DNA of 64,000 nt from Pseudisothecium myosuroides (taxonomy: Eukaryota > Streptophyta > Bryopsida > Hypnales > Lembophyllaceae), in the NCBI GenBank assembly GCA_951799445.1, contig OX637288.1, forward strand, positions 31,785,288 through 31,849,287, in the 5' to 3' direction. Position 1 is the stretch's first letter. Each line of letters opens with the position of its first letter. The position numbers and the translations under genes are program-made. Below are positions 15,131-56,735 of the stretch, piece by piece. The notes under the pieces were generated by a model. That model was not told the DNA's origin, made no database searches, and worked only from the letters and a program-made list of their open reading frames with translations.

Positions 15131-15546
15131 CTCAAGATCTTCTTTAAATCTTCACCCTCAGCTACGTACTTCCTCTGCTGCCATAACACAGACACTCAAA
15201 TCAGCAATCAACATTTTCGGTACATGACACTGGAAACCTGATCCCGTCTTCGGTACCCACCCCTGTTACACCACAGCTAGTACTCAGCTCTTCCAACACA
15301 CTTGGTTAGCTTTAATTCCGACTACAATAGTATTTTGGGTGTACACCGCTCTTGAAATGTGCAATTTTGGAAAATTTTCTGCACTTCTGAATGGAACATA
15401 CATGAGGTGTCTCCTCAGCTGCGTGCACTAGCTATCGATCTATGTAGACAAACTAAGCTAGCTCCCAGTGTTTGAAAGAAATCATCATTCTGTGGTACGG
15501 TACAAAGTGGAGTGACTACTAAGCTCACGGCAACTTAACCGGCAGC
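15131..15546 (-). promoter_or_regulatory. Leader and proximal promoter of the CASP-like gene
   Basis: This is the non-coding stretch between the CASP-like ATG and the tandem array. No TATA box or defined element can be supported by eye. Confidence 0.3.
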
Positions 15547-16165
15547 GCGTACTGTGTACTGTACACAGCAAAATACACTGGACAGTGTTCCCTCTCTTGT
15601 GTGATTTTGCAGTGCCTACACAATCAACTTGAATTCGACCACAACATCCTAGTGGAAAATTCAGTGACGCGTACTGTGTTTTGTACACAGCAGAATACAC
15701 TGGAGAGTGTTCCCTCTCTTGTGTGATTTTGCAGTGCCTACACAATCAACTTGAATTCGACCACAACATCCTAGTGGAAAATTCAGTGACGCGTACTGTG
15801 TTTTGTACACAGCAGAATACACTGGAGAGTGTTCCCTCTCCTGTGTGATTTTGCAGTGCCTACACAATCAACTTGAATTCGACCACAACATCCTAGTGGA
15901 AAATTCAGTGACGCGTACTGTGTTTTGTACACAGCAGAATACACTGGAGAGTGTTCCCTCTCTTGTGTAATCTTGCAGTGCCTTCACAATCAACTTGAAT
16001 TCGACCACAACATCGATCTTAGTGGAAATTTCAGTGACGCGTACTGCGTACTGTACACAACAAAGCACAGTAGAGAGTGTTCCCTCTTGCGTGACCTTGC
16101 AGTGCCTACACAATCAACTTGAATTCGACCATAACATCGATCCTAGTGGAGAATCCAGTGACGAG
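15547..16165. repeat. Tandem array, five ~122-bp units
   Basis: GTACTG-starting units begin at about 15549, 15671, 15793, 15915 and 16041 (periods 122, 122, 122, 126). Each contains an imperfect palindrome of the TGTGTTTTGTACACA type, a TACACTGGAGAGTGTTCC block, and CAATCAACTTGAATTCGACC. The inner units are nearly identical and the outer ones are diverged. The unit is not a multiple of three, so the similar minus-strand open frames over it are by-products. It lies 420-1035 bp upstream of the CASP-like start codon. Confidence 0.9.
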
Positions 16166-37588: not shown

Positions 37589-39900
37589 TGTGAGCTTCCA
37601 ATTTGTCACTTAGGACTCGTAGAATTATTTTTTTGGAAATTTGCAATTTAAAGTTGATAAAAGTATACAAAAAGTCATAAAAAGATTGTAGAACCGAAAT
37701 AGGGTTGTGTCATACCCATTATAGTATTTGGTCTAGATTTGTGTTTTTACTTAGAATCCCCCCAAACCTTGCCTAAAAATAGTATAGAAATAATGAAAGG
37801 GTTAGATTTGGAGGATTTGAGTCACACAACCCTAAAAGGGCTAAATTCTACTATGAACGTGGCAATTCATGGCTAGGTCGGTCCGAGGGATCCACAGCGA
37901 GGCCACTAGGTCAGGTCCTAGAGTTAGATTTAGAATTCCCCATTAAATCGACGAATTCTCAAAATTTCGATTATTAGCATGCAGTAACCAATAACGTAAG
38001 ACTAGGCCCGTGGAGGAATCTACAGCCCAAAGATGGTGTTTCGGGGTGAATTCCATGCCAGGAGTCCAACGGCGAAATCAATTTGACAAGATTCCTCTAC
38101 CTGCAGAAGATTCCCGCACTGTCGCTTATTCGAGGAGATGACCAGTTTTAATCTCCATTGACCAATTGTGTCAGGTACGGAAACGCACTTGCACGTCTTT
38201 CATGCGACTCCCTGAGAGGTCACGTGAAAAATCCCGGCATCTTCCGACTTGCAGAAGAGCCTTTTCCGGACGGTCAACCCTCCTAACCTCCAACGGGAAT
38301 TTCATGAAAATTACCCAGGTTACAATAAAATCTCACTAAAAATTAAACTAGCTGGTTTTATGTTAATAATGCGCTCCGTGAAGTTTCATGACATTCTGAT
38401 AGCGACAAGTACCCGAACCGGCGAGATTCCGTGGGAATTAACTACGTCGCGGGGTCCCCGCCACGTTGACCGGCATTCTGGGATCATATGATGGCGAAAC
38501 AAAGTCAACCAAAAGTCCTTCCCGACTCTCTCGCACCTACCGGAGACTCTAGGCTATTCACATTTCTCAAAATATGAGACCCCCAAGATCTAGGATTTTA
38601 TTACGATTTGGTTTTTAAAACTAAATTAGCCTACGATGGATTTTTGGCCTCGGTAAGGGTCAGAGAAAATGAAGACTAAATACGGCGATCTGGATCCAAC
38701 GGCGCAATCCGTTCGGCGATTGGAGCTAATCTCCAAAAGTTAGGATGTTGGTCCAGCATAGATGGTAGAAGTAGATTTTTAGGATTTAGGATGAAAATCA
38801 TTGAGGATGAGGATGAAAATCCTCGTTGATAAGGTTACCTTAAAACTCTAGAGGAAGGGGTGAGCCCTTGGAAACCTATATAAGGGCCCCATTTCTCTCT
38901 CTAGAACACCCCCAATTCTCATTTTGGGTCCGTCGGTCCAAGTTATTTTGGATATTTTGGCGTTTGAAGCCAAAAATCTCTACGGTGTTTTTGGAGCACT
39001 TTTGGTTTCATTGTTATAGTATTTCAAGCTTTGAAGGTCCTTGGGGGTCCTTCTACCTTGCTTTGTGTACTCTTTGTGTCTTCTTGTGTACCCTTGTGGA
39101 GAGTTGATTGCCTTTCTTTCCCTCTTGTGCATCCCCGTGGTCTAACTTGCGTGTTTTAAGAGTCTTTGTGTGTCTTGTATTAATCCTAAAGTCACCTCCC
39201 ACCGTACCTTGGCGATGCCGCTTTGGGGGGCCTTTAGTATGTGAGCTTTGTGTTGCCACGTGGTCCTAACTTGTGTGTTCTCTTAAGTATCTTTTTACAC
39301 CTTTGTCTAACCTTCTCCTTGTTGAGTGGACCCCCCTCCGGGACGACGAAGCTTTGAACTTACCTTGTGTTTTTTTTTAAAAAGTGTAACCTTGTCTTCT
39401 TCTAAAGTTTCCCTTGTCGTATGGACCCCCTCATAGGACGGCGAAGCTTTGAACGTATAACTAGTTCTAAGTCCTAGAGTGTGTATTAAAACAATCCCGG
39501 ACGACGAAGCTATGGACTCCCGGAGTGTCACAAGCCCTAGAATTGATGTTAAACCCAAACTGACGGAAAAGCTTTGAACCTCCCGGGTACCTAATTCCAA
39601 AGTCTAGTTTCCAAGACCTTCTTAGAAAAGTCTAAAGTTTAGCTTCCAAGATAGTAGAGTTTTAGCGGGAAGAAGGTATTGAGGGCCAAGTTTCACAAGC
39701 CCAGCCTTTGTACACGTGATTTTGCTAGCCTAGCATTTTTTCGAGCCCAACCCCTCGAACGGCGAAGCTCTGACTTTGCCACAAAAAATCCGATTTATTT
39801 TTACATTAGTGAGATCCCCTAAGGGACCCCGTGTGTGTGAATTTGAGAAAAAACGCATAGCCAGCAGCAAGCCAACATAGCCAGCCGCGGGTCCCCAACA
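37589..39900 (+). mobile_element. LTR (copy A), 2.3 kb, + orientation
   Basis: It begins TGTGAGCTTCC and ends CCCCAACA, so it has TG...CA borders. It contains CTATATAAGGGCCCC (about 38876), which fits an LTR core promoter. The start (TGTGAGC...CACTTAGAACTC type) and an interior block (TAAAATCTCACTAAAAATTA...GTTGACCGG) are shared with the LTR at 48706-50688. Within it, a GGACGRCGAAGCTTTGAAC motif recurs about every 60-120 bp between 39335 and 39775. The sequence after the end, GTTTGGTACTCAG, could be a primer-binding site but is only a weak match to a common plant tRNA end. Confidence 0.65.
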
Positions 39901-40879
39901 GTTTGGTACTCAGTTAAGGCCGGTACCCCGTTGGGCCCGGTACACTGCCTATCCGGCACTTGCCTGGTTCGTTATTTGGTGGCCTTGGTCAACTGATCTT
40001 AGCTCACATACATACATGCTGAATTTCAAACCAGAAATCGGGATGATACCCTACGGGGTCCTACTTTTCTCTTTTTTTTGATTTTTTTTGACAAATTAGG
40101 AGTTAGTAGAAATTTAGTTAGGAAGGAGAAAAAAAGGCTCAGTTAGGATCCAATTACTAAGCTGGTAGAAATTTAGTTAGGAAGGGAACCCAGTTTAGAC
40201 TTAGTCATACAACCCAGTTTAGATCCAGTTGTACAAATTAGTTAAATCCAATTATTCAAACCAATTAGATCCAGTATACAAACCAGTTTAGATCTAGTTG
40301 AAAGCTAGTTAGAATCCAGATTAGGACCTAGAGTAATCTAGTCTAAGCTAAGTAGGAAACCAAAGGTTCAACAAAAATCCAGATTGTAACGAGAAATAAA
40401 AAACAAAGGGAAGGGGAAGAAAAAGAGTTCACGCCTCCACGTCACACCTGCACACCAAACTCACAATCTCCACTCTAACCAACCAAATACACACATGAAC
40501 AATGGAGGGAGATTAGAGAAGGAGAAGGTGAAGTAGGGAGCAAAAGTAGAGAGACGATAAATAATGACCTATGCCTAGGATTAGGTAGGTCTATGAAGGA
40601 AATCCCAAAGAACTCCTTGTGACCATTAGAAGAAGGATTAGGATGACACAAAGGCAAAATTGTGTAAGAGGATAGTTGGCATCTTAAAAACCTCCTTGGA
40701 GTTTGAGACCATAATATAAGACTCATAAAAGCTTAGGTGGAATAGTACTAGTGTAGAAGGAGAGAGGAAGAAAGAAAAGGAAGGAAGAAGGGAAAGAGGG
40801 AAGTTAGATTGCAATGGTGTAATATTATCTCAAATTAAGCGGTGAGCTTGGAAAAAATCAAACAAAATAAAGGATTGCC
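39901..40879 (+). mobile_element. Untranslated leader of element A
   Basis: This non-coding leader lies between LTR A and the ATG at 40880. A degenerate repeat of CAGTTTAGATCCAGTTGTAC units spans about 40085-40330. From about 40500 on it matches the inverted copy B. Confidence 0.5.
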
Positions 40880-42350
40880 ATGGAGCATGAGGATGTCTAC
40901 GTGGACGTGGACGAAGTGATTTCCGAAATCGGCAGTGAAAAGGTGAGTTTTTGAATTAACCCTTGGTATTTTTCCCTAATTAACATTGATTTCTTTAATC
41001 AGCCCTTAAAGTGTGATTAGCGAGCCGTGATTAGTGCAAAGTAAAAGTTTAGATTCAAAATCTCATAGATTAGGGATAGAGGGTTCCAAAAACATATTAC
41101 ACTCAATATTTGACTTTAAATCGACCACGTTAGGTTAAGTTAAGTAGTAGGAGGTAGGACGGAGGAATTTGAGTAAAATTTCATCCAGAAGGAACCATGG
41201 ACGGAACTTAGGAATTTAGGGTAGAAAAAGAATTTAGGATTAAAATTAGGGATTAATTAGCAGTTAAAAAACTAGAGTCAAATCAAAGTTAATTGTAAAA
41301 GTTAAACTCTAAAGTCAAAATTTAGAGTTAACTTTGGAAAGTAGAGTTAGAGTCAATTTAGGAGGTAGATTTTTAGAGTAAAAATAGGAGTTAAATTTAG
41401 AAGTTAGAGATTAAAAGTTAGTGTTAAAATTAGAGGTTAATTTTAAAAGTTAAAACTTGGAGTAAAGATTAGATAGTAGAATTCAAAGCTAAAAGTAGAA
41501 GTAGGAAGTTAGAGGTAGAAGTTATATTTTAGAGTTAGTTTTTTTTGGAAATAGAAAAACCTAGAGTCAAAGTGAAAACGTAGAGTCAAACCTAGAGGTT
41601 AAAATTTGGGATTAATTTTAGAAGTAAAAATTTAGAGTTAAAAGTCAAAACCTAGAGTTAAACTAGGAGTAAAAACCTAAAGTGAAAAGTGAAAAGTTAA
41701 AGTTAGGTTTAGAAGGTAAATCTTAGAGTAGTTAGAAGTAAAAACATAGAGTTAAAAGTGAAACTCAGAATTACCCTAGAAGGTTAAAACTTGGAAGTTA
41801 AGAGTTAGAGTTAATTTAGGAGTAAAAACCTAGAGTCAAAAGTCAAAACATAGAGTTGAAGTCGGTAGTTAATATTTAGAACCAAGTTAAAGAAGTAAAA
41901 TCTAGAGTTACCTTCAGAAGTTGGAAATTAGAGTAAGAGTTGGAACTTTAGGGGTAGCTTTTAAAAGTAGAACTTCTAGGTGGAGCTTTATAAACCCAAG
42001 ATAGTCTTAGAGGTTCATGGAAGGAACATAGGGGTTCCTCTTTTCACGTAGATAGGGACGTTAAAAATGACGCCAACTACCCAATCTATCCTCGACATAG
42101 GATAGATAGTTAGGGAGTTAAAATTTCACCATCCCTCTGATCATTGTAGTTAGCTTGCGAGTCACTACATGCATTTCTAGTTATTCGCTGCTATCCACGA
42201 CACTTAGAAAACGTTAGCAAAAAAGATTCATTGCTTGGAAGGCACAGTGGACCGCGCTCACAACACTCCCATATATTAAAAAAGTGGATAAAGGCATAGT
42301 ATCTGATTGGTGTTCGCTTTATTATTAAGGGTGGGTAATCTTGCGCCCAC
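40500..42350 (+). repeat. Arm 1 of a large inverted repeat
   Basis: This segment matches 45285-43920 on the opposite strand. Shared blocks include GAGACGATAAATAAT, the ATG exon, GGTTCATGGAAGGAA, ATAGGATAGATAGTTAGG, ACAGTGGACCGC and GGGTGGGTAATC. The middle part (about 41030-41960) is a degenerate TTAGAGTTAAA/TAGAAGTTAAA repeat in both arms. The arms differ in length and have clearly diverged. Confidence 0.75.
40880..42320 (+). pseudogene. Spliced 5' ORF of element A (unknown gag-like protein)
   Basis: Exon 40880-40942 encodes 21 codons, opening MEHEDVYVDVDEV, and stops at GAAAAG/GTGAGT. The AT-rich repeat-filled stretch that follows behaves as an intron. After an acceptor-like AACGTTAG at 42217 the phase-0 frame reads through FIAWKAQWTALTTLP and closes about 36 codons later. 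The same arrangement exists in copies B and C, with the AWKA word kept in C. I do not recognise the protein family; position after the LTR suggests gag. Confidence 0.4.
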
Positions 42351-43919
42351 AAAGGGCTTCTACTTAGCGTGAGTTTTTGGAATAGTAAGTAACAAATGTT
42401 CTTTTTGCACTAGCGCAAATTGGAAGGGACAAAGTATAACTAGCCCAAACCTATCAAAGTGAACAAAATATCACTAAAGAAGACTCACTGCCTCTATAGT
42501 CTCTAGGTTCAAAATTGACCTTAGTTATAGGATCTATACAAAGTTTCACCATTTTCACACATACTAGCATTAAATTGGAAGGGTCAAAGTATGACTAGTT
42601 CAAACCTATCAAAGTGAACAAAATATCACTAAAGAAGACTCATTGCCTTCATAGTCTTCAGGTTCAAAATTAACCTTAGTTATAGGACCTATACAAAGTT
42701 TCACTATTTTCACGCATACTAGCATCAAGATTTTCTACTTGTACCTAGAGGTATGTATAAAATCATCATTAGAAAAATATCTTCATCACCATCACATCTA
42801 GAATTCTAGATTTTTGCCTAAAATGGACATTAATTTTGAAGATGTTCAAGGCTTTAACATTAGAACATTGTATTGATTTATGGTGAACCTATCACGAGCA
42901 CTAAATTGGATTTTATAATGTTTCTTCCAGATTGCATGAGATGGACTGCCACTTGTTGTAGCTGCAGATTCTTAGCCCAAGATAGACCTTCAGTTTGCAC
43001 TAATTCGCAATCTCTACCTTACAATCCAACACTCCCTATTTCATCAATAATCAACAATGTGACTTGATTATCCTACTCCTCTCTTTGTACCTTCACTAGC
43101 AAATGAAGGTCTAGAAAATTTCTTCCTAGAGGTCATTGACATCATTGGCAAGTTCAATCATAAATTCATAAAAAGTTAAAAGCTTGAAATTGGACGTAAA
43201 GCTTCTAGTTGTGAAGATCTCAATGAAGACAACTTTGATGAAGGGCCTTACTTCTTCCACAAAAATCAAAGCGTGGATGATTTCTTATGGCCTTCAATAT
43301 TGCTCCACAAACCCCTAGGAGATTGGAATTGAGGATAATTGACGTATATCACACAAGCCTAACAGGCAAGAAAAAAATAGAACATACAAGTAGTAGCAAA
43401 AGATACCTAAGGCGTTGTTGAGCTTTCTATCTGCTATGATGACATAGGCGGAGACATGGCCGGGAATAGGGTAGAGCAATGGATGGAGCATCATCAGAAA
43501 TATTGACAACATACCAACAACTCACATAAGTACTATTGATCTCCTGTTCTCGTTTTTTTTTAGGTTTGTGTGTCTCTTTAGAAAGTGGAATGGAGGTGTC
43601 CTATAAATTTGTTGTCTTTGAATTTGAAATGGAGTGTTTAGATTATTATGTGGCTTTTATTATAAGAAACCTATGTTTTTGAATGTAGTTTATCACTAAT
43701 ACGCAGTGTCCAATAAAACATGAAGATGTCAAAGGACAAATGGCCCCAAAAGATAGATTTTTGTAGACATTGTGAATATCGCCGGCATGTTACTATAAAA
43801 ATAAGTTGATGTTATCATTGACAATGTTCTATTTGACATTACTAATGACATACTGATGTTACTTGGATCATTTAAAAAACATATTCTGCTACGTCAACAA
43901 ATAGACCTATTTTGACTAG
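42351..43919. other. Spacer of the inverted repeat, with a 155-bp tandem duplication
   Basis: The block TTGGAAGGGACAAAGTATAA...CATACTAGCAT at about 42418-42570 is repeated at about 42573-42725, period 155 bp. The rest is AT-rich with no gene I can support. Confidence 0.6.
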
Positions 43920-45285
43920 GGATAAGTGTGAGCACTTGATTACCCACCTTTGGTAATAAAACAAACACGACCAGGTTCTTAGCTTTTATCAACTTTTGAT
44001 TTCAAGGGGTGATGCGAGGGCGGTCCACTGTACCTTTCAGACAATGGATCTTGCTAATGTTTCCTAAGTTTCGTGGATGGGCAAAAGAAATGCCTAGAGA
44101 TGCGAGTAATGCAACTTCCAAACTAATTGTCAATTATCAATGATCACGGTGATCCAAGAGTGAAATTCTACCATCCTAACTATCTATCCTATATCTAGAA
44201 TAATTAGTGCCATTTCTAATGACCCTAACTAATTGAAATGGGATCCCCTACATTCCTTCCATGAACCCCTAAGATTACTTTCTTCCTTTTAACTGCCGGT
44301 AGAATTCTAGATTTTAACTTCTAAGATTATTTCTAAATTTCTACTTCTAAAATTCACTTTATATTTTTACTACAAAATTAACCCTAAGTTTTGACTTCTA
44401 GCTCTAGATTTTACTTCTAAAACTAACTCCAAAATTTAACCTTTAATTTTAACTCTACGTTTTAACTTCTAATTCTAGATTTTTACTTCTGAAACTAACT
44501 CGAAATTTAATCTCTAAGTTTAATTCTATGTTTTAACTTCTAAAATTACTTGAAAATCTAACTCCTAACTTTTAAGTTTTACTCTAGTTTTTGACTCCTA
44601 AATTAACTCTAACTTTTAACTTTTAATTCTATGTTTTAACTTCTAGGGCTACTTCTAAGTTTTAACTTTTAACTCTAGCTTGTTACCTTCTAAAACTAAC
44701 TCTAAATTTTGACTCTAATTTTAATTTCCTAAATCTAACTCTAAATTCTACTTTCCGCTAATCTATGTTGGCTAACGTGGATTAAGGACTAATTAAAAAA
44801 ATCAAGAGTTAATTAAAAAAAAACACCAAAGATTAGTTTAATGACTTACCTCATTGTTGTTGTTGTTAGAAATGACCTTGTCCACGTTCTCGTACGCATC
44901 TTTGTGTTCCATAGTAATTCCTCATTTATTTTTCCTTTTTTCAAAGCTTGCCACTTATTTTAGAAAACATTACACTTTTGCGTTCTAACTTCCTTCTTTT
45001 CCTCCTTCCTTCTTTTTCTTTCTCCTCCCTTCTTCTACATTAGTACTATTCAACCTAAGATATTGATGGTAGTTTTACACTATGGTCTCAAATTCCAAGA
45101 GAGTTAATAGTGCCTCCTACCCTCTTACACCTTTCCCCCTTTTTGTCATACTAATCCTTCTTCTAACTATCACAAAAAATTTCCTAGATTTCTCTTCTAA
45201 GTCTATCCAATTTTATGGCTAGGGTATTATTTATCGTCTCTTTTTTTTTCTTTTACTTCATCCCCTTCTCCTTTAATCTCCTTTT
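43920..45285 (-). repeat. Arm 2 of the large inverted repeat (copy B)
   Basis: This is the inverted counterpart of 40500-42350. The short ATG exon is kept at 44912-44850 (21 codons, the same length as in A, opening MEHKDAYENVDKV) with a perfect GAG/GTAAGT donor. The following intron-like part holds the same TTAGAGTTAAA repeat in reverse. The second-exon region near 44030 has a stop where copies A and C read a tryptophan. Its upper end abuts a 54-bp piece that recurs at 56262-56315. Confidence 0.7.
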
Positions 45286-45286
45286 G

Positions 45287-45345
45287 ACTCCGCAACGTTG
45301 GGCCGACGAAAAATCCACGGTCATGTTACTCGCATGACAGTTGTC
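45287..45345 (-). repeat. 54-bp direct repeat, copy 1
   Basis: On the minus strand this begins TGTCATGCGAGTAACATGAC and ends near GTTGCGGAG. It matches 56315-56262 with a few changes. It may be the start of an LTR of the minus-strand element (TG border), cut off by copy B, but this is uncertain. Confidence 0.5.
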
Positions 45346-45610
45346 ATGCACAAACACATCATGCTAAGATCACATCGTGCTAACATGAGAGATAGCGTGC
45401 CACAAGTCAACAATGAACCTTGTAATTGGTTAGCAATTTAACTACACCAAGGCTCAATAGCTCTTGATCAACGGTGAACACCGTAGTCATAGAAAAAACG
45501 CCACGTGATTGTGAAGTATATCACAATCACGGCAAATCCTGCAAGTAATGAAAGAAATAAACATAGTTACCAGGCAGAAAATGTTGCACATGAGGCCTGT
45601 AGCCTCCTCT

Positions 45611-46607
45611 TCAAATCGTGGCATAACGCAACGTATCTCTATGTTGCGCAATAAAAAGTTTTTTCAAAGCCATTGGCATCATCTTCTTGTATAAATCCGC
45701 ATGTTGGTCACATACGTGAGCCCACGTGTCTGGATCATCCACGTGATTCAATGTCTTGTCTGCATCTTGTTTAATTGCTATTGTTAAAATCGGATGACGC
45801 GCAAACCATAAATAATAGGGTGAAAAAGAAGAAAGAGAGGCTTGCTTACTAAACTGATAGCCCATTGCTATCCACGGCAGTTATAAGTTCCAATCTCCAT
45901 GATGCTCCTTCTTCAAGCTATACTTCCAAAGTCCCCTCTTGACGGTTTGCACCATGCGCTCCGCCAAACCATCTATTTCGGGGCATTGAAGTAGTGCGGT
46001 AATCAATCATCGCTTGATCACATAAAGCTTGAAATTCTTCAAAAAACTCACATCTTTAGTCAGTTAACACCTCAGTTGGAACTCCAAAGCAATTCAAAAC
46101 ACGATCCAAAAATGAATAAGCAGCCCCTTTACTGAACTTGTCCGACAATGCCACCAACTCAATCCATTTCGAAAAGTGTTCAATCATGACCAATACATAT
46201 TTATTATGTCGTAGGATCACCGGCAATGGTCTTGTAAAATTCAAACTCCACCTATAGCTCAATCCCATGATTGGCAACGGTTGTAATTGAAGCTTTGATA
46301 CATTAAATAATGCCCGCACTCTATTATACTCCGTGCATCTTTGCATGCCTCGTTACTAATAGTGAATCTGCAACAAGCTGTGGGTTCTCCGCACTTGGAA
46401 GTACCCCAAGTCTTCATGTGCATATATTATCAACTTCACTCTTTTATGAAGCGCTAGTACCACCTTCTTGTTGCCATCTGGCCAAACTTGAAGCAAATGA
46501 ACCTCCTCCCATACGAACCACTTGACTCGTTGTAAGATCCGGTCTTTCTCTATGGCCAACATATTAACCACTAATTTGCCATACTTCAAGTATTTCATCA
46601 CCTTCAT
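45611..46607 (-). pseudogene. Integrase fragments
   Basis: The 46607-46356 part carries the zinc-binding type HEDLGYFQVRRTHSLL. The 46346-46056 part carries the core start (SLNFTRPLP, MIEHFSKWIEL, FGVPTEVLTD). The 45865-45611 part carries the post-core SPYYLWFARHPI and AQHRDTLRYA. Frames differ between parts, so the gene is dead. Confidence 0.82.
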
Positions 46608-46934
46608 ATTATCAAAAATATCGTTGGCGCCCCTAGACTTTTAACCACCATCCGCATTCATTGAGGCCCTAATGGCTTCTTCAGTGATGTCTTCATTTAT
46701 CGCCAGCATATTCAAATAGGCGGTAGAATGCTACCCTGGTAACGAATCTTCTCCTTCTTACACGTGCCATTATCGAACCCTCGTAGAATCCACTTGGCTA
46801 AGACTTGGATTGCGACTGAAGCCGTCAACATCAATATTCACCAAACCAACACGGTGCACAATTTTGAAGTTATACTCCATTAACATTAGAGCCCATCGTG
46901 TAAGCTTGTTCGCGAGCTTGTCAAACTCCATTAG

Positions 46935-47168
46935 TCACTTCAACGGTTGGTGATTTGTAACTAATAGAAATTCGTTACCATATAAATAAGACAAAAAATG
47001 AGCAATGACCCACATTGCCGCCAAACACTCACGCTCATACGAGCTATATTGTGCCTTCGCATTGTTGTTGGAGCGACTGGCATAAGCTACCACAAACTCT
47101 TTGCCATCATTATCCATTTGAATCAACACCGCACCAATCACTAATGAGCACCAATCTCTAGTGAGCAT
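46935..47168 (-). pseudogene. RNase H fragment
   Basis: The fragment reads GAVLIQMDNDGKEFVVAYAS, NAKAQYSSYERECLAAMW and TNHQPLK, the standard Ty3/gypsy RNase H run between RT and integrase. The usual D of the TDHQPL-type end is N here. The first catalytic aspartate region is degraded. Confidence 0.85.
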
Positions 47169-47377
47169 CGATCTCTAGAGAGCTCCAATCGTTGTGTAAT
47201 TGGTATGATCTACCAAAAATTAGCCTCCTCAATATAGGTTCCGACAATAAATGTTCTTTCAATTGTTGAAAAACAACCTCTTAGTTATTTTTTCATATTC
47301 AAGATTGATCATTCCTTGTCAATATGGTCAATGACTTTATGATGGCACTAAACGTTTTTACAAATTTTCAGTAATAA

Positions 47378-48289
47378 TTATACAATCTGAAAAAATGCTT
47401 GTAATCTACACACATCCTTCAGCTTTGGAATAGACATCATCACTTTCATTTTGCTAGAAATCACTCCTAATCCTCTTGAATATATTATGTAGCTCAAGTA
47501 CTCTACACGGTCATAATAAAACGTACATTTGATTGGATGTAGTTTTAACCCGTGAAATCTTAGTCTAACAAACACCTCCTTCAACTGAATTCTATGTTGT
47601 TTTTTATTCATGTTGTAGACGATAATGTCATCAATGTAACATTTCACAAAATTTATGGCAAAAAATATGTGATTCATAACCCTCTGAAACTCAACAGGTG
47701 CATTTTTCAAATTAAATGGAAGGAACCTTCATTGATAAAGCCGATCTTTCCCATCCTCATCAATTTTCTAGAACGTCATCTTGTTCTTATCACCTTCTCT
47801 TATACCAAGTTGGTGATAGCCCGATCGGAGATCCAAAGTAATAAATATCTAAGTGTGGCCTATGACATCAAAATTCTCATCCGGTGTTGACATTGTATAA
47901 CGATTTGACTTTGTAAATTTATTAATCCTACAATAGTCCCCTCACATCCTTTTCTCGGTCCAATTCCCAAAAATGTCCTTTTTGGATGGCATAACCGTTG
48001 CCGATGCATACTCACAATTTGGTGGTGCTAACTTCATCAATCCTGCCTCCACTAATTCCTTGGTCCAGGGTTGAAACATCTTGCATTCTACCTCAGCATA
48101 CTTGTAAAGCTTGAGATAAATTGGTACATCATCCATCAAGTCAATACGTATCTCTTGTTGTTTTAGGACTCCAAAATCCTTAAAACTAAAAGCAAAACAA
48201 TCCGTATACTTCTTCAGAAACGTTTGGTTTTTCATCATCTCTGCTTCATCTTCCAAGCCTATTAGCGATTTTTTAATTTCCTTGGTCAC
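47378..48289 (-). pseudogene. Reverse transcriptase fragments (Ty3/gypsy)
   Basis: The first fragment (48289-47942) has the pre-RT and finger region, with DCFAFSFKDFGVL, ELVEAGLMKLAP and SATVMPSKKDIFGNWTEKRM, followed by a stop. The second (47710-47378) has PVEFQRVMNHIF and the catalytic YIDD box (CYIDDIIVYN), then KCTFYYDRVEYLSYIIYSRG. The stretch between them, where the first catalytic aspartate lies, is broken. The wording is of the gypsy type I associate with mosses and lycophytes, from memory. Confidence 0.87.
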
Positions 48290-48705
48290 CGCCTTTTTCT
48301 AATCTTTTTCTGAAGCAAGTTTTTCCAACTTTCATTACTATTACACGCCATTTGGAGCAAACTCCTCTTGCTCTACGCCAGTCATATCATACTAGCTTCA
48401 ACTTGACCCAATTGTCATAGTTCGTCCATTTAGCACAATATATGCTCTTTGAAAAATAACTTCTCCACTTGCTCTTCTAATTCAATTTTAGATTCGACCA
48501 ATTCTTCCCAACTAAGCCAACAAACTTTTCAAATCGAGAAACATAAAGAATCCTTCCATAAATCCCATGGGTGAGCTGCGAAGGCCCTTTTGCCTCCAAC
48601 CACCAGTTTGGACCGCCAGCACTTGATGGTTTCATGGCCGCTTACAGCTCATAAAATCCCAAGCGACATGATAATGAAAAAGCTAATCACTTTTGCTCGG
48701 CCACT
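48290..48705 (-). other. Upstream part of the minus-strand pol, unrecognised
   Basis: Short minus-strand open pieces run into the RT start. They include a KAKGPSQL-like word resembling pre-RT linker, but no domain can be named. It ends where the + strand LTR begins. Confidence 0.35.
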
Positions 48706-50688
48706 TGTGAGCCCTCAAGTTAGCACTTAGAACTCTGGGTTTATTTTTCGCGATTATTGTTAATTTTTAGTATTAATTCATACAAAATAGCATGAATAAG
48801 TCAGTTGAGAAAAGTTTGGTGGAAGTCCCTGCCAGATTAGCGAGGAGTTGTCCTAAAATCACGAGAAGCACAAAATATAATGTTTTTCCAGGTTTAAGTC
48901 TTAGTTTAATATCTTATAGTCCAAATTAGCGTTTACGAGAGATGTGAAGATGCGAGAGTTAGTCAGTTATAGTATCTGATCCATGTAAAACTCGACATGT
49001 AGAGTGCATGTGACAGCCTGGCTAAATTATCAAAGTCTATATATAGGTTTAGAAGTGTCTAGATCCAATTCATGTAGAATTTGGGCTAGTTATGTAAAGA
49101 CCTGCAAATGTTGAAGAATATGAACCAGAATGTAAAATAGAAGAAGGGCGAGATGATTGAAGCTTACAGAAAGGTGCTTTTAGGGTAAAAGCATGCCAAG
49201 AGGTCAACAACGGAACTAATCATCCACGACAAACCTCGGTACCAGACTAATTTCCCCCTAGGGCGGAAATTATTAAAGAATTGCTAAATTTAGCAACCTT
49301 ATTGGAGGTTTGGTTTTGCCCTTAGCTTTTAGACATTTCCTAGAAGATTGCCCAAAAGTTTCGGGATTTTGCAAAACTCCGCGATGACTCCATGGGAAGT
49401 CAACCGCCTTTGAAACTGATGGTAAATTCATAGAAATTATCCAGAGTGCGGTAAAATCTCACTAAAAATTAGATTAGAGTTTTATATATAAAATAAACAA
49501 CCAGTCAAGTTTGAAGACTTTCCGATAGTCAGAAGTACCAGAATCAACGACGACATTGAATTTAACAAGAATTTACAACATGGCGGCGGATTGACCGGTG
49601 AACTAGGAGCTGGCGGTGTCCGAATGTCGCAAACAAGGAATACTTTCTTACTCTCACGAACCTTCCAGGCAACTCTAGCCAGTCAGTTTTCTCGAGAAAT
49701 TCAAATTTCATTAGTTGGGATTTTGACTTTTTTTTGAAGTTATAGTTAGTGGTTCTTACGAGTATTTACAGCCTGGAAGCAAAGAGTAGGGAATTACTTA
49801 AACTAATTGGGATCTTCTGAACGCGATGGCGCAATCGGTTTTCAATTTGGAGTTGTTCTCAAGAAGATAGAAGAGTTCAGCCGTAGGTTTGACTTTTTTA
49901 GAGTAATTAGCGGTAATTCAAAGTTATTTCACAAAATATCTTGGTGAAAGTCAAAGATTGGATTTAGTTAAGATTTCAAATCTTTCCTTTAAAAGCCAAT
50001 TTAGATTAAATTAAGAATATTTGGAAATATCCTAAAGTTGTTTGCAAAATATCTCAAGGTTAAAATAGTAAAATTCCTAAATATCTTTGGGAAAATCTTA
50101 GATTTTATTTTGGACAAGATTTCCTTTGTAAATAAGGCTTATTCTAGAAAATTCTAAAGATTAAACAAAGATTATTTAGGAAATATCTTAGGGTAGTTTA
50201 AAATTTAGTTTAGGTTAATTTTTGAGTAAGAGGATCAAATGTCTCATGGTAAACTAAGTGGTGGGGCCTTCTAGCGAGTATATAAGGCCTCTCCGCGAAG
50301 TTTGTCGTACCCCCTTTTGTTCATTGTCTGCCTACCGACACTCTGTCGGAGTACGGACACTTTCTTTTCTTGTTCAATTTGCTTACCGGCTTTATCGGAA
50401 GCAACTAGTTAGACCAAATTTTGGTCATCTTTGCTCATTTTGTTTATTATTCTTTCTTTTAGTGGAGGATTTGGTTGACGGACTTGGGGTTCCCTTTCAA
50501 ACCATCATAACCACACAAAAATCACACTTTTAGGAGGTCTCATCCCCCAAAAAAACTTGCCTATCTTGTTGACGTACCAATTTTATGTTTGAAACAGCTA
50601 TTGAGTTAAGAATTCTTAAGGCGGTGAAGCTAGTCTTTGCCAAAAGATTCCAACACTCAAAATACCAGCCAAATTTCGTTGTATAACA
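48706..50688 (+). mobile_element. LTR (copy C), ~2.0 kb, + orientation
   Basis: It begins TGTGAGCCCTCAAGTTAGCACTTAGAACTC and is related along its length to LTR A. Shared blocks are TAAAATCTCACTAAAAATTA near 49450 and GGATTGACCGG near 49590. A TATATAAGGCC core-promoter box is at about 50280. The end near TTGTATAACA is inferred from the position of GTTTGGT in copy A. LTRs A and C are too diverged to be the two ends of one young element. Confidence 0.55.
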
Positions 50689-52544
50689 AAGTTTGGTGTG
50701 ACTTGATTCCTAATTTTCAGTTTAAATACTTTCATATGTACCTCAATTAGGAATTAAAACCATTTGATACCTTGAAAATTATTTTAGTCCTTAATGTTCG
50801 GTTTAAACACTTTCATGTGTACCTCCTTTAAGAATTAAGACATTTCTGCAGCCACTTGGAACTATAATTGACGAGTTTAGCTTGGGGTTGCTTCTCACGG
50901 CGAAACTTTAACCTCGGACAATTTACCTTGAAGAAAAAACTTGGAAAATATCCTTGGTTGTTGGGCTTTTTAAGCCAAAACTCCATATCAAGAGGTTCCT
51001 TTTTTCCCGCCGAGATTTGCTCATTTTGCGTTTGCTACCATTACCAAGTTTGAACCCTCGTTGTTAGTTAATCTTTGTCATAGTTTAGTTAGTTTAGTCA
51101 TTATTCCCCCACAAATCCAAAATATTCTTAGTAGTCTAGTTTCGTTTCGTTAGATGTTAGATTATACCAAAAAATCCAAAAAAAACTTAGTTGACATTTG
51201 AGTTATTTAGCTATTGAACCCTTCTTCCATTTAGTTAGTTTAGATTATTATTAATTAGTTTTTTTTTTTTTTCAAGAACCAGACCAGCATACGAAAAACC
51301 AGAACCAGCATACGAAAAATCAGAACCAGCATTCGAAGAACCAGAACCAGCATACGAGAACCAGATTCAGCCATCAAAGGGGTCGTGGGGAGTCGGCAAG
51401 AACCTGCTACATGTCAGTCCTAGGGAGCCTGAGGACGGAGGTCGGGGAGTCTGGGAAACGCTGGGGGTCGCAACCGGGCTGGGAGGTCGCAAAGGAAAGG
51501 TCGCAAGGGCTGGGAGGTTGTAAAGGGAAGGTCCAGGGAGTCCAGGGAGCCCAAGTCCAAGTTATCTTGGACAACTCACACCAAAACTTGAGAAAAACCA
51601 CTGACAAAAAATCACATACTTAAGGTTAGGCCATTGCTCGCCACACCAAACCATTTTGATTTTTTGTCTTACAAATTTTGGTTCGACAACTACAAATTCA
51701 ACTCACTTCGAACACTCACGCTCTCAATTCAAAATTCCATAGCCACAACATCAATTGACAACTAAACTTGAAGAAGAAAACCACTTGAAGAAGACGAAGT
51801 GGCGGCTTGGGAATAATTAGATTAAATAACTAGTTTCCTAAAGAATCTAACTATTCACGTTGGCTTGATGTTTTGTTTTTTACTATTCCTTTTGGATTTG
51901 GTTTGGGTTTTTATTCTTTTTCTATTCATTTGTTTTGTTTTGTTGTGCTTTTCCTATTCATTTTAGATTTGTTTTGGTTTTTATTCCGTTACTATTCATC
52001 AACTATTCATTCGAGACAAATTGTTTTTGTTTTTTTACTATTCATCTACTATTCATTTAGAATAGTTCTTTGGTTTTATTCCTTATACTATTGAAGAATT
52101 TGGTTTTTTCTATCAATTAGTATTTTTGGAAGAAATCAGCTGGTCTTGTTAACTTGGGTTTTTGTTTTATTGGCCTAATAAGCCAAATAGGAAAAGATAA
52201 GAAGTCAACAAAAACAATAGACTAATGAATAACAAATAAAATTGATTATTCAGTGGAATATTATTAAATTGGAAGATACTAATCTTTTAAAATTAATTCT
52301 TAAATTAAAACAAATATTCAAGGTGGTTGAAAATAGGGCCTTGAAGTTACTTTAATTCAAAAGCTTATTTTAAAATCAACTAAAAACCATTAGAAGTTTA
52401 ACGTAAATTCCTAAAATTAAAGGAATTAAGTTAAATACTTAGACTAACCCTTTTATTTGTAAGAAATCAGTTAGAAGAATGTTGGAAAAGGATTTTTCCA
52501 TACATTTTGACACTAAACTTTCATCAACAGACAGAGTACCCACG
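50689..52544 (+). mobile_element. Leader of element C with minisatellite
   Basis: This is a non-coding leader. A 20-bp-type repeat (AACCAGAACCAGCATACGAA) occurs about four times at 51281-51372. Another run of CTATTCATTTAG/TTTTGGTTTTTATTC-type units covers about 51870-52090. Confidence 0.5.
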
Positions 52545-53391
52545 ATGGAGGACGAGGGTTATCTTGAGACCATTATGCTAGTGCTCTGCAATGACGGGAC
52601 CATGGACCCAGAGGTATGTTAATTTTACCCTTTGCTTTTGCTTTGTTTTTGTTTTCAAATTAAAGTTAGAATCTTTGCTATTAGAAGTTAGTTTTTAAAT
52701 TAGAATTTTGAATTGAAGTTAGATTTAGAACCTAATAAGTAATTTAGGAGTTATAAAACCAAATCATACTTAAACCTTAACCCAATAACGAAAATTACCA
52801 ATAAATTAACCATAACCTCCCATTGGATGATAATCTAAGATTTTCATCCAAAGGAACCTTTAAGAAATCTTTTTAGGTAGGAATCAGACAAAAAATCTAT
52901 AAAGATTCCAAAATCCCTTTTTACTTTTGAAGGATAAAAGGTTGGATGAAGTTTGAGATCAAATTTGGATGAAAAACATCCAATTAGGTCAAAATTCCAA
53001 TTAGTCTTAAAAAATCGTAATTTAAAGGAACTAATAACTTAACCTTAGAATTTAGAATTATTTTGGATTGATTTGCTATTTTAGATTAGTAGATGAAGGT
53101 TAGCACAACTAAGGGGCCAAACGTACCTCGTGGTAACTTTTGCTAGGAATCTTGGAATCTAGTTTTCTTCACCATTCTGGGTAGAGAAAATTATATTCTA
53201 TAAAGCTACTTAGATACAATTTTAGTTAGATTAGATTTTGTTTTCTTTCTTTGTGTTTTACCTAACCATAACGTTTAAATTAATTAACCCATAGTTTTCT
53301 TAGAATTAGTGGAATTTACAGGATTACCAGTCACAAGAAGTGTCCATTGCTTGGAAGGCAAACACTTACTTAGGAACCACCCAGTTATGAG
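52545..53391 (+). pseudogene. Spliced 5' ORF of element C
   Basis: Exon 52545-52613 (23 codons, opening MEDEGYLETIMLV) ends at CCAGAG/GTATGT. An acceptor AATTTACAG ends at 53321, and the phase-0 frame then reads SIAWKANTYLGTTQL before a stop. The AWKA word is the same as in copy A, which supports the proposed splice in both. The intron would be 708 bp. Family unknown. Confidence 0.4.
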
Positions 53392-53462
53392 TAAAATCTC
53401 CAATGAAACTACCGCTAGAGTCCGTGTGTAACTTTTTGACTCAAGGATGGAGTTAGAAACAC

Positions 53463-54420
53463 TCACACCACCACAAGAGAAACAATACATGAAAGGCAAT
53501 TTAAATCCATGGCTTGGCCAACAAAATATCGCCTTTGGAACCCCGTCATGTCTGAAGTGTTGGTGACCTTCGTTTTGAATCTCATAGCCCGTTTGCGTTT
53601 ATCGGCATTGGGCTCTACCATTTTCTTGGTACGAGTATCCCACATCAAACCAGGCCATTGTCCTTAAATGCGTTAGACCGTGAAAAACTCACCAATGTGA
53701 GCAATGCCCGTCGTGACTCCTTTTTACGAATGACCACCATTAACAAAGCCTGCTTATCGTAATAAACTTGCCGAGGTAAACAATGCGAATCTAAAATCTC
53801 TTTAATATAGACATCGGGGAGATGAATGGGTCTATTGGCCGCATGTAATAACTTCACCGGTGCCATGTTACTCCACCAAAATCGCGATTTATGAGTTCGT
53901 GAGCCCACAACTGTTGCATCCAATAATATGGGAATTCCAAGAATTTCATGAACACGATGAATGTTTTTAAGGATGTGAGTCCATGACATAATCACTATGG
54001 ACACATGCTCAATAATATACCCTAGTGGTCGTCGTTATGAAATCTGAATATAACGCATCACTTGTATCATATCATGAAATCGTGAAGACTGAGCACCTTT
54101 CAAGCCGATCTGCCTACTCGCCACAGACATACTTTGGCATGGCCATCCTGTAGTAATTAAATCTACGGGTTCCAACCGTACCATGTCTTCTTACGAAATC
54201 AATGAAATATTACTTGGTAAAGTAAAAAATGCGATTTTAATGGCATAAATGCTTAATAAGAATGGAAAGGCTTGGCGCAATCATTAAACATGGCGCTTGG
54301 CCACGTACTGTGTCATGAAATCATTATCCACAATGTAACGTTTCACTTTCGAATCTGTCTACAATACTACAGCCAATCCTATGCTAATACCACAAAATAT
54401 CTTCAATTGAGTAATACCTT
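53463..54420 (-). pseudogene. Retroelement-borne DNA cytosine-5 methyltransferase, decayed
   Basis: Read on the minus strand, C5-methyltransferase motifs appear in canonical order. Motif I: KIFCGISIGLA (54403-54371), with YIVDND (motif II) after it. Motif IV: the PCQ box in DLITTGWPCQSMSVA (54148-54134 for GWPCQ, cysteine present). Motif VI: YIIEHV near 54010, where the family has ENV. Motif VIII: HKSRFWWSN. Motifs IX-X: the terminal block FQRRYFVGQAMDLNCL (53560-53490). Motifs I to VIII share one frame, with in-frame stops at 54361, 54286/54283, 54193 and 54037. A frameshift near 53648 separates the last part. The enzyme family transfers methyl groups to cytosine in DNA. It sits on the same strand as a retroviral-type protease just upstream and gypsy RT further downstream, so it was most likely part of the retrotransposon. 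It is inactive now. Confidence 0.85.
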
Positions 54421-55102
54421 CATCTAGTGGCTTTCAATAAATTGTAGAGGTATTGAGAGGTGAGCCAGCATCTTTCATACCTTCATCTTCCATATTGTCT
54501 TTTTGTGATAATAATGATTTTTGTCACGCCTCATGGATGACAATTTTTATAGCTCGTTACAGCTCGATAATGCATTTTCACGTCGCCTTCATACCTGGTT
54601 GATATAATACATCGCCTCCAACCTCCAACATGTTCAAGTTGTTATCTTCTTGAATATTGACAGCCGACGCAATAATAGAAGGATTTTTTAAATCTCCTTC
54701 AAATCAAGGTTGATCTTCTGCTACAAATCTAGAAAAAGAATAGAGATCAACAAAATTAACGGTGAGAACTTGTATAAAACGAGCTGGCAGTTGGACCTTG
54801 TGACTATCTCTTACTTGCCATTCCGGTTTGTAAGAAGCCGTCTCTTTCCAGAAGTTTAAAATAAAACCTATAGAATATAATATCATAATCTCAACCAAGA
54901 GATCATATAACTATAGCCTTCACCTTCATAAAGCTAACATCTTTATTCTTTAATATCATCGCGATAGAGCCATAATGTCAACATCCCTAAAGACCTCCTA
55001 GCATCAAGAAAATCACGAGTTTTTTCTACACTAGGAGGGTCAATAAGCTCTAATTTCAACAAAAGTCTCTGCTCCACTACCGCTTCGACAACAAGTGTCA
55101 AT
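54421..55102 (-). other. Linker between protease and methyltransferase, decayed
   Basis: Short minus-strand open pieces, the longest at 54898-54704, have no recognisable domain. They probably belong to the same polyprotein. Confidence 0.35.
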
Positions 55103-55598
55103 TCATTTGCTCCTTATGATGCCATTTGCTTGCTTCGTCTCTCCTATGAAAGTATTAATCATACATGGACACGTTTTCAATATGTCCTCAGTCAAACTCG
55201 AGCCTTCAATGGCTGCATCATCCAACATCAAAGATTGTGCACCAGAATCCAATAGTATCTGTCGAGGCGCAAAAAACTTTTTCTTTGAACCCAATAAGTT
55301 GAAAAATATCCTGGAAATTGTTTAAAACCACTGCTTCAGGAGTGCTGGATGACCGCTTTATTGCAAGGCGTGCTAACATGGTCTTTAAACGAGCGGCAGC
55401 TGATAACAAGCCTTTTAACTCGATCCAACCACTATTAATCGCCGCCGTCAGTTCAAGCACGATTTTCATGGCACTCACGATTGTTAAGGTGCTTTCCTCA
55501 CGCATAGTAGTCGCCAATTGAAACATCGCAGCTGCACTAAACTGTGCTTGTGTAATAATCACCAATGTTACGCAATACGAGAAAAATCTTCCACACAA
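55103..55598 (-). pseudogene. Retroviral-type aspartic protease, decayed
   Basis: The 55294-55103 frame has the active-site box LLDSGAQSLMLDDAAI, a D-S/T-G-A loop followed by the usual hydrophobic stretch. The preceding frame (55598-55218) reads LAIKRSSSTPEAVVLNNFQD and joins by a frameshift near 55280, so gag-end and protease are in different frames. A single DSGA-type site fits a retroelement protease acting as a dimer. It lies upstream of the methyltransferase on the same strand. Confidence 0.75.
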
Positions 55599-56315
55599 AC
55601 ACGTTATTCTTGAAAAAAACTCCCACTGTATATTAATTTCCTCAAAACTAGGGAAGAAATGAACTATTCATTCTAAAAATTTAGAAGGGATATCCTCATA
55701 GCAAGCCTCTATTGGCCTTATCTTTAAATCATGAGTCTTTAATCTTTAAAGCAAGGTTAATAATGCACTAATTTTACTATTTAAAGTTTGGGACCCATTT
55801 TCAATACCTAGGAAGTCTAAAATCATGGCTATGGTGCTCAAAGACAAGTCCTCCTTGCAATTTTAGCACAAGCAAATTACCTCAAAACATTTTAAAATGC
55901 ATTTTTAAACTAATTTAAATGCAAAATTTGACTACGTATACACCTATAAACGTAATGAAATCTTTTTCTAAGTAATAAACGTGAGAAAAAACTCCTAAAG
56001 ATGCTAGAAAAAACTCACAAAATACAAATAGTCATGTCTACATCATTCTTAAAGAATGTGTACATACTTGGACAAAACGCCAAAGTAAACGTCTCTCATT
56101 CCATGACGTGGATGACTCAACTTAGAAAATAATGAGTCTCCATTGTTCCATGTGGAGGTCATGGTCATTTGAGGTCCCAAACGAGATGTCGACCCCTCGC
56201 CATGGCCCAAGATCACATTTGGGGCTAAATGCACTCTGCGATACTCCACACCATCTTCTACCACTTCCTCTGGCTTCGCAACATCAGGCCAACGGGAAAT
56301 CCACGGTCATGCTAC
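55599..56315 (-). mobile_element. 5' part of the minus-strand element, unrecognised
   Basis: A 71-codon frame (56264-56049) reads EYRRVHLAPNVILGHG and HPRHGMRDVYFGVLSKY; I do not recognise it. The stretch 56315-56262 repeats the 54-bp piece at 45345-45287 in the same orientation, which may mark LTR starts. No clear gag domain is visible. Confidence 0.4.
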
Positions 56316-56735
56316 TTGTATGACACCTTTTTTCGTAATTTGTTTTTACATAATAAAGTTTTAATTTTGTACTTAATTTCTTGAATAATCTTAGTCATCC
56401 CCTTTAATCCTTCCTAATAGTATTTTTGATTAGATGCATTTAACAACAAAATTTTAATTTATATAATAAAATCTCTTTAAGCTCCTTTTTTATGTTCTAA
56501 TTACCTACTGAATTAAAATTCACCCCAACATAGATTTATATCTTTAATTGATTTAATTTTGTATTTGTAAATCCCCTAATATTGTCTAGTTCATTTATTA
56601 TTTTTGTAGGCAAGTCGATTATGAGTTTATAACCTAATATATATTTCTATCGAAGAAAAATTTATAATGAAAGGTTTTTTAGAATAGATTGATTTGAAAG
56701 CCTACTCCAAATGAGTTGATCTAAGGAATTGGGTT
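56316..56735. other. AT-rich spacer, no gene seen
   Basis: Strongly AT-rich, with no open frame or repeat worth naming. Confidence 0.5.

Follow-up and report, generated by a model that had tools for sequence, protein, structure and literature searches.

A decayed Ty3/gypsy-type element with a putative Dnmt3-type DNA methyltransferase and its multicopy family in a streptophyte, probably moss, genome

In the available portions of the papers cited here, retroelements that carry a DNA cytosine-5 methyltransferase (DNMT) are reported from dinoflagellates and one charophyte alga. The closest described system, KnitGypsy-Dnmt3 of Klebsormidium nitens, is a Gypsy element with DIRS-like repeats that holds an intronless, unrearranged Dnmt3 in its Pol open reading frame (ORF), and this algal DNMT capture is called independent by de Mendoza et al. 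(2018; PMC5890265). The same paper spells out the repeat order A-coding-B-A-B for SymbioDIRS. According to a 2019 opinion paper (PMC6338049), which also accounts for their loss, land plants lack transposons that carry DNA methylases, and a limited literature search, which included available parts of PMC6338049, PMC12344493 and PMC9861306, returned no report of DNMT-bearing transposons in land plants. Here we describe a decayed Ty3/gypsy-type element on the minus strand of a 64,000-nucleotide stretch of DNA (the window) from a streptophyte, probably a moss. It belongs to a family in which a putative Dnmt3-type DNMT ends the gag-protease ORF, and the reverse transcriptase (RT) lies beyond a conserved in-frame stop codon.

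The first-pass annotation had read a DSGA-type aspartic protease followed by a DNMT on the minus strand of the window between 53463 and 55598. We re-read this interval on the minus strand in three frames and confirm the annotation, with the DNMT recognised by Pfam, PDB profile comparison and tblastn of relatives. The piece with GWPCQ matches the C5 methyltransferase profile of Pfam (DNA_methylase, PF00145, E 1.9e-5), the broken DNMT with its stops entered as X has DNMT3A/3B as top PDB matches (E 2e-4), and 34 metagenome relatives align by tblastn within 54883-53475 with E values down to 1e-111. The best of 54 relatives in a reversed-window control reached only E 0.097. We take the recognisable motifs to be I (FCGISIG), IV (GWPCQ), VI (EHV), VIII (HKSRFWWSN) and X (VGQAMDLN). 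The protease piece alone is weak in Pfam (E 0.1). Downstream on the same strand lie an RT piece (RVT_1, 8.7e-15) and an integrase piece (rve, 2.1e-6, below the Pfam cut-off). The further claim of RT-RNase H-integrase on the strand of the DNMT thus stands as to strand and domains, but DNMT and RT do not adjoin: the ORF is interrupted just past the DNMT by an insertion of 4762 nt (48706-53467). The linker ORF of the relatives resumes at 48704, one or two residues past the DNMT end at 53475. The copy is dead, as also annotated, with 10 stops over a 411-codon alignment and a frameshift near 53654.

Other copies were located in the host assembly (388 Mb in 222 contigs, of which C1-C11 make up ∼380 Mb) using the metagenome protein P0054 as query. 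At least 80 places match, which is a lower bound, and matches occur on every one of contigs C1-C11. The main group is ∼57-72% identical to P0054, with further groups near 44% and 39-41% and with old copies such as that in the window (49%). The match is free of stops in 20 of the 80 (some of them duplicates) and holds at least one internal stop in the other 60; two frames of 1357 residues have no stop at all. For the best 30 of these at least 80 matches (L011-L040), to which the detailed counts below refer, all 30 loci have DNMT and linker, 29 have a first RT piece and 28 a second, on the same strand and with the same spacing. In younger copies the protease precedes the DNMT in one open frame. 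The link of the DNMT to protease and RT, which the first-pass annotation had staked on finding it elsewhere in the genome, therefore recurs. The arrangement that it proposed to test, with protease, DNMT and RT in one ORF between long terminal repeats (LTRs), holds in part: gag, protease and DNMT share one ORF, but the RT follows in the same frame past the conserved stop, and split repeats stand at the ends in place of ordinary LTRs.

The most studied younger copy, C8:1027235-1039113, spans 11,879 nt and has an open ORF 1. The first 854 residues of its open frame, before the DNMT, contain a gag zinc knuckle (8.2e-5) and a protease with the motif DSGA...DVLVG (Asp_protease_2, 5.6e-4, under the cut-off). 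ORF 2 encodes RT (RVT_1, 2e-32), RNase H (RT_RNaseH, 2.9e-33) and a C-terminal PHD finger (2.1e-11).

A stop codon lies after the DNMT-linker and ahead of the RT in all of the best 30 loci. Past this stop the RT keeps the ORF 1 frame in 28 of 29 loci (the exception, L025, is shifted by one in this measure), so a readthrough product would hold both DNMT and RT. The stop is TAG in 27/30 and TAA in 3/30, two of which look like one duplicated locus, and the next codon is invariably CAA (30/30). TAG-CAA-CCA is found in 23 loci and the full TAG-CAR-YYA context in 24. Both subfamily 4 copies that were read that far also have TAG-CAA-CCA; this subfamily and subfamily 1 share only 46% identity in the DNMT, with synonymous sites saturated. 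TAG-CAR-YYA is the readthrough context of tobamoviruses (tobacco mosaic virus type), and the ORF 1 end resembles that readthrough stop in sequence alone, by the same UAG-CAR-YYA context in 24 of 30 loci. We infer from this arrangement that Gag-protease-DNMT would be the main product and that the RT part would be made by readthrough.

The element ends were checked in eight copies (the C8 copy and seven picked, not at random, among the best 30). All eight are bounded by TGTC...GACA and flanked by 4-bp target duplications (one of them TTTT and hence weak). Five show the order A-coding-B-A-B and three A-coding-B, and repeat B was looked for in the 5' stretch of all eight and is absent there. The C8 copy has an A1 of 324 nt that is identical to A2, and its 3' end reads B1-GC-A2-B2 with B1 and B2 matching at 342/344 positions. 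Across copies the A pairs are 97.2-100% and the B pairs 98.3-100% alike, and the insertions are therefore recent. The A-coding-B form may have arisen by B1/B2 recombination, or a circular intermediate may have given rise to it. In the window copy A1 survives (56325 to ∼55973), together with part of B1 and the initial 72 nt of A2.

DIRS elements use a tyrosine recombinase and are not known to make a target duplication. The present family is not of this kind, as it has an rve match and 4-bp target duplications in 8/8 copies; no search for a tyrosine recombinase was made. It shares with ordinary Ty3/gypsy (Metaviridae-type) elements the zinc knuckle, aspartic protease, RT, RNase H, rve integrase, TG...CA ends and short target duplication, but those have identical LTRs at both ends, whereas here we find split repeats, a DNMT and a PHD finger. 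SymbioDIRS-Dnmt3 from Symbiodinium likewise places a Dnmt3 in a retroelement with A-coding-B-A-B repeats, but has a tyrosine recombinase in place of the rve-type integrase and target duplications seen here (PMC5890265, available portion). KnitGypsy-Dnmt3 comes nearest, with the same Gypsy domain set, an unrearranged and intronless Dnmt3-type DNMT, A-coding-B-A-B repeats and purifying selection on the DNMT, as far as the available text of that paper goes. There the DNMT lies in the Pol polyprotein ORF, whereas here it ends the gag-protease ORF and the RT follows past a conserved in-frame stop; host, PHD finger and 4-bp target duplications also set the two apart. The terms PHD, readthrough and gag do not occur in the main text of PMC5890265, by a term search of that text. 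New here are thus the host (a streptophyte, probably a moss), the placement of the DNMT before a conserved stop, on the gag side, and the PHD finger. The three unusual features common to our family and KnitGypsy-Dnmt3 hint at one older streptophyte lineage. If the host is a moss, a many-copy and partly young family in a chromosome-scale plant genome contradicts the statement of absence in the part of PMC6338049 available.

We built a profile of the DNMT from four subfamilies and the metagenome relatives and compared it with PDB chains. DNMT3A is the top match (1.1e-14), followed by 4onj (7.5e-8; labelled 'DNA methyltransferase' and presumably a DRM), HhaI (1.7e-7), DRM2 (6.1e-7) and DNMT2 (1.3e-4); the 58 PDB matches at E 1 or better include no chain with a DNMT1, MET1 or CMT label. 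By profile match, the element enzyme thus appears to be Dnmt3-type, over DRM, DNMT2 and bacterial enzymes. In younger copies motifs I, IV, VI, VIII and X follow in that order in one open frame, unrearranged and intronless. Two host exons, L005 and L049, are by contrast rearranged with motif X before motif I, and L005 matches DRM2 at 5.4e-57. Plant DRM belongs to the same Dnmt3/DRM superfamily, but in motif order and best match the element DNMT does not look like these host DRM genes. DRM is said to be restricted to streptophytes (PMC12344493, available portion). The host DRM exon, the CASP domain gene in the window and the concentration of ∼380 Mb of the 388-Mb assembly in contigs C1-C11 would fit a land plant, and AT-rich spacers and n = 11 suggest a moss.

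A metagenome protein search returned 34 relatives of the window DNMT at 47-57% identity, and their ORF runs on past the DNMT via a linker of ∼130 residues. In a second protein search (29 proteins) nine relatives (P0008, P0023, P0035-P0038, P0041, P0048 and P0050) end their ORF at the same place, with '...GIQ' in seven and '...SIQ' in two. P0012 and P0054 hold protease and DNMT in one ORF. These proteins are predicted ORFs and open by construction, so that their conservation is biased, gene callers listing open frames only. No relatives were found in viral contigs or in prokaryote genomes when both were searched. An AlphaFold2 model of the DNMT from 34 close relatives is unusable (mean predicted local distance difference test score 36.9). 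The related family is abundant in some JGI metagenomes (clusters P0001-P0054), with cluster P0035 alone comprising 170 member sequences. In the ORF P0014 a gag piece, which resembles the gag in ORF 1 of the C8 copy, is fused directly to the DNMT by an apparent internal deletion.

Constraint on the DNMT was assessed from the ratio of nonsynonymous to synonymous substitution rates (dN/dS) and from polymorphism, within subfamily 1 using 23 of the 30 loci (7 differed in length and were excluded). Between subfamilies 2 and 3 (one copy each, 320 codons) the DNMT has dN 0.21, dS 1.21 and dN/dS 0.17; the other five subfamily pairs have dS of at least 1.9 or undefined. Within subfamily 1 the median dN/dS is 0.40 (DNMT), 0.41 (protease side), 0.29 (linker) and 0.27 (part of the RT). 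Pooled, the RT gives 0.60; the set includes L036, a locus in which no RT is recognisable. Among the subfamily 1 copies WPCQ is intact in 19/23, its cysteine in 23/23, GxG in 23/23 and EN in 22/23. The catalytic cysteine is present in 26 of 28 metagenome proteins and lost in two. These comparisons support constraint on the DNMT, no stronger than that on its neighbours.

Cytosine methylation is how hosts silence mobile elements, so the retention of a DNMT under selection by such an element poses a paradox. Directly observed are the gene order, the frames, the stop, the ends, the target duplications, the copy number and the constraint on the DNMT. We build on them a model whose inferred parts are readthrough, catalysis, packaging, cDNA methylation, the role of the PHD finger and the end-restoring route. 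Ribosomes translating members with open frames would mostly stop at the UAG (UAG-CAA-CCA) and release a Gag-protease-DNMT polyprotein; a small fraction would pass the stop and yield Gag-protease-DNMT-RT-RNase H-integrase-PHD. Because it lies on the Gag side of the stop, the DNMT is predicted to be made in excess over RT, and in this excess it would enter the particle. There it may methylate new cDNA before or at integration, and the new copy would arrive with a host-type mark. The integrase would insert the A...B-ended DNA with a 4-bp target duplication, and the B-A-B end could serve as the template that restores both ends, as in DIRS-like elements. Methylation of cDNA as protection or disguise, and also slower retrotransposition, are proposals of de Mendoza et al. 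(PMC5890265, available portion).

The PHD pattern is present in seven of the eight copies examined and was not found in L057. The finger lies in the C-terminus of the integrase ORF and may bear on the integration target. The pairing of PHD finger and DNMT places an epigenetic reader beside a writer in one element. Both the excess of DNMT over RT and PHD-guided integration are directly testable predictions, and the family offers a tractable system for an element-borne DNMT. The window copy is dead, yet younger copies in the same genome retain an open DNMT reading frame.

On balance we favour, with somewhat more than even confidence, the reading of the window element as a dead Ty3/gypsy copy of a family that captured a Dnmt3-type DNMT and keeps it working, readthrough and cDNA methylation included. 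More tentatively, and at somewhat less than an even chance, the family could represent one old streptophyte lineage of split-repeat DNMT gypsy elements, young and multicopy in a land plant, which obtains excess Dnmt3 via a leaky stop, carries a PHD reader on its integrase, both reads and writes marks and delivers pre-methylated copies.

Several observations weigh against the favoured reading. Three of the 30 loci lack the YYA context and three have the TAA stop, and the one subfamily 2 copy that was read has TAG-AGG. ORF 2 of the C8 copy is broken by two in-frame stops, and among the copies examined none could be followed unbroken from gag to integrase. The one subfamily 3 copy that was read has no RT within ∼2.2 kb, and some DNMT copies may thus be non-autonomous. 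In subfamily 1 the DNMT is no better kept than the protease side and less so than the linker and RT by their medians. The amino-acid-changing share in the DNMT is 0.38 for shared changes versus 0.59 for singletons, a weak contrast (p 0.067); the same contrast in the RT gives p 0.0059. Motif columns do not differ significantly from other columns among the metagenome relatives (p 0.094). The DNMT of KnitGypsy-Dnmt3 produced no methylation in yeast, a result that its authors call inconclusive (PMC5890265, available portion).

An unlikely alternative, which still deserves some weight, is that the DNMT helps the host or limits the element: self-methylation would lower the element's own transcription, and low activity would be favoured, sparing the host. 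Plant hosts are well known to read cytosine methylation as silencing, and with internal stops in 60 of 80 matches the family is partly decayed. Slower retrotransposition was also named as a possibility for the algal case (PMC5890265, available portion). Selection of this kind is, on the other hand, expected to be weak in a multicopy element, and the DNMT shows constraint similar to that seen for the protease side.

We regard it as quite improbable that the domain has lost DNA methylation and now binds nucleic acid or modifies RNA within the Gag precursor. A location on the Gag side of the stop would fit such a role, as would the four of 23 copies without intact WPCQ and the two of 28 metagenome proteins without the cysteine. 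The retention of that cysteine in the other 26 and in 23/23 genomic copies speaks against this reading, and the best match is DNMT3, not the tRNA enzyme DNMT2.

Contamination or misassembly, with algal or protist elements in the assembly, is very unlikely. Bacterial-looking methyltransferases (L001, L002, L003 and L004) on the small contigs C180, C110 and C81 are probably assembly contamination, but the element matches lie on all of C1-C11, copies have their own target duplications, and the window copy shares its contig with a plant-type CASP domain gene, which lies inside the window. Scarcely credible is a chance neighbourhood, in which a host methyltransferase gene or pseudogene lies in or beside a retroelement: the window DNMT and RT are indeed broken and 4.8 kb apart, but the arrangement recurs in order and spacing at 29 of the best 30 other loci, which already refutes it, as do the single frame from gag to DNMT and the protease-DNMT ORFs P0012 and P0054.

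We had also considered a recent burst of near-identical subfamily 3 copies and dropped it, since two pairs lie exactly 73,138 nt apart on C49 and C217. This spacing suggests that the pairs reflect a duplicated 73-kb block, probably a segmental duplication.

The surviving element in the window extends from ∼45268 to 56325. Its parts, its neighbours and the PHD finger of a younger copy are as follows.
55973 to 56325, minus strand: terminal repeat A1 (element 5' end, begins TGTCAT); 225 nt at 72% to A2 of a younger copy, its start matching the A2 start at 45339
55290 to 55559, minus strand: remnant of the gag end before the protease, by alignment to L041; most of gag is gone
54870 to 55290, minus strand: aspartic protease (DSGA ... 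L-V-G region) with ∼120 extra nt; weak in Pfam, younger-copy counterpart Asp_protease_2
53475 to 54425, minus strand: decayed DNMT, probably Dnmt3-type (PF00145, DNMT3A/B in PDB, tblastn of relatives)
48706 to 53467, no strand assigned: nested insertion of 4762 nt that splits the ORF after the DNMT, placed by the relatives' ORF continuing at 48704 and by border sequences
48344 to 48704, minus strand: linker that follows the DNMT in ORF 1 of relatives (tblastn of P0005-P0008 and P0023)
48332 to 48343, minus strand: decayed stop site of ORF 1, reading TAA-TAG-TAA-TGA against CAA-TAG-CAA-CCA in most other copies, by comparison with other loci
47378 to 48298, minus strand: RT in two pieces (RVT_1 8.7e-15), with matches at 29 and 28, respectively, of the other loci in the best 30
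46737 to 47232, minus strand: RNase H, aligning at 73% with the same domain of P0034
45614 to 46640, minus strand: integrase in pieces (rve 2.1e-6, below cut-off), two more of them unrecognised by Pfam
45340 to 45558, minus strand: part of terminal repeat B1, 86% to repeat B of a younger copy
45268 to 45339, minus strand: start of repeat A2, cut off, by alignment to younger copies; the rest of A2 and B2 were not found
40508 to 45281, no strand assigned: long inverted-repeat element outside the retroelement, by its inverted pairs; it abuts and appears to truncate A2
L042:2840-3721, minus strand: C-terminal PHD finger of the integrase ORF in a younger copy, also in L045, L059, L061, L063, L065 and L067

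P0034 is a fragment that joins a DNMT piece to RNase H and itself matches RT_RNaseH at 8.3e-31. The gag end of the window copy (55559-55103) is 72% identical to nt 3679-4135 of the reverse complement of L041. The earlier gag part with the zinc knuckle (L041 ORF) has no match anywhere in the window, and the gag of P0014 gave nothing better than E 1.0 there. The window copy also lacks ∼593 nt just before B1, where younger copies have the PHD finger, and the PHD pattern was not found in 45300-46000.

An earlier pairing of 45278-45339 with 56264-56325 as the starts of two ordinary LTRs was rejected, as past the first 58-86 nt the alignment is no better than shuffles. The younger copies explain this failure: the two segments are the starts of A2 and A1, and A2 is cut at the inverted-repeat element. 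The inverted pairs of that element are 40508-41053/45281-44740 (73.6%) and 41593-42351/44717-43927 (68%), with arms of ∼0.5 kb and more. The nested insertion ends in TGTGAG...CTCACA with flanks GGTGG/AGTGG (4/5 alike), and no LTR-like direct repeats were found at its ends; within it, 49421-49543 resembles 38295-38417 (73%).

The observed/expected CpG ratio is 0.79-0.85 in the element and 0.71-0.82 in two gene regions, and being thus alike it gives no sign of methylation decay in the element. A tandem repeat with a unit of ∼122 nt, whose pairs are 85-93% alike, occupies 15546-16163 of the window.

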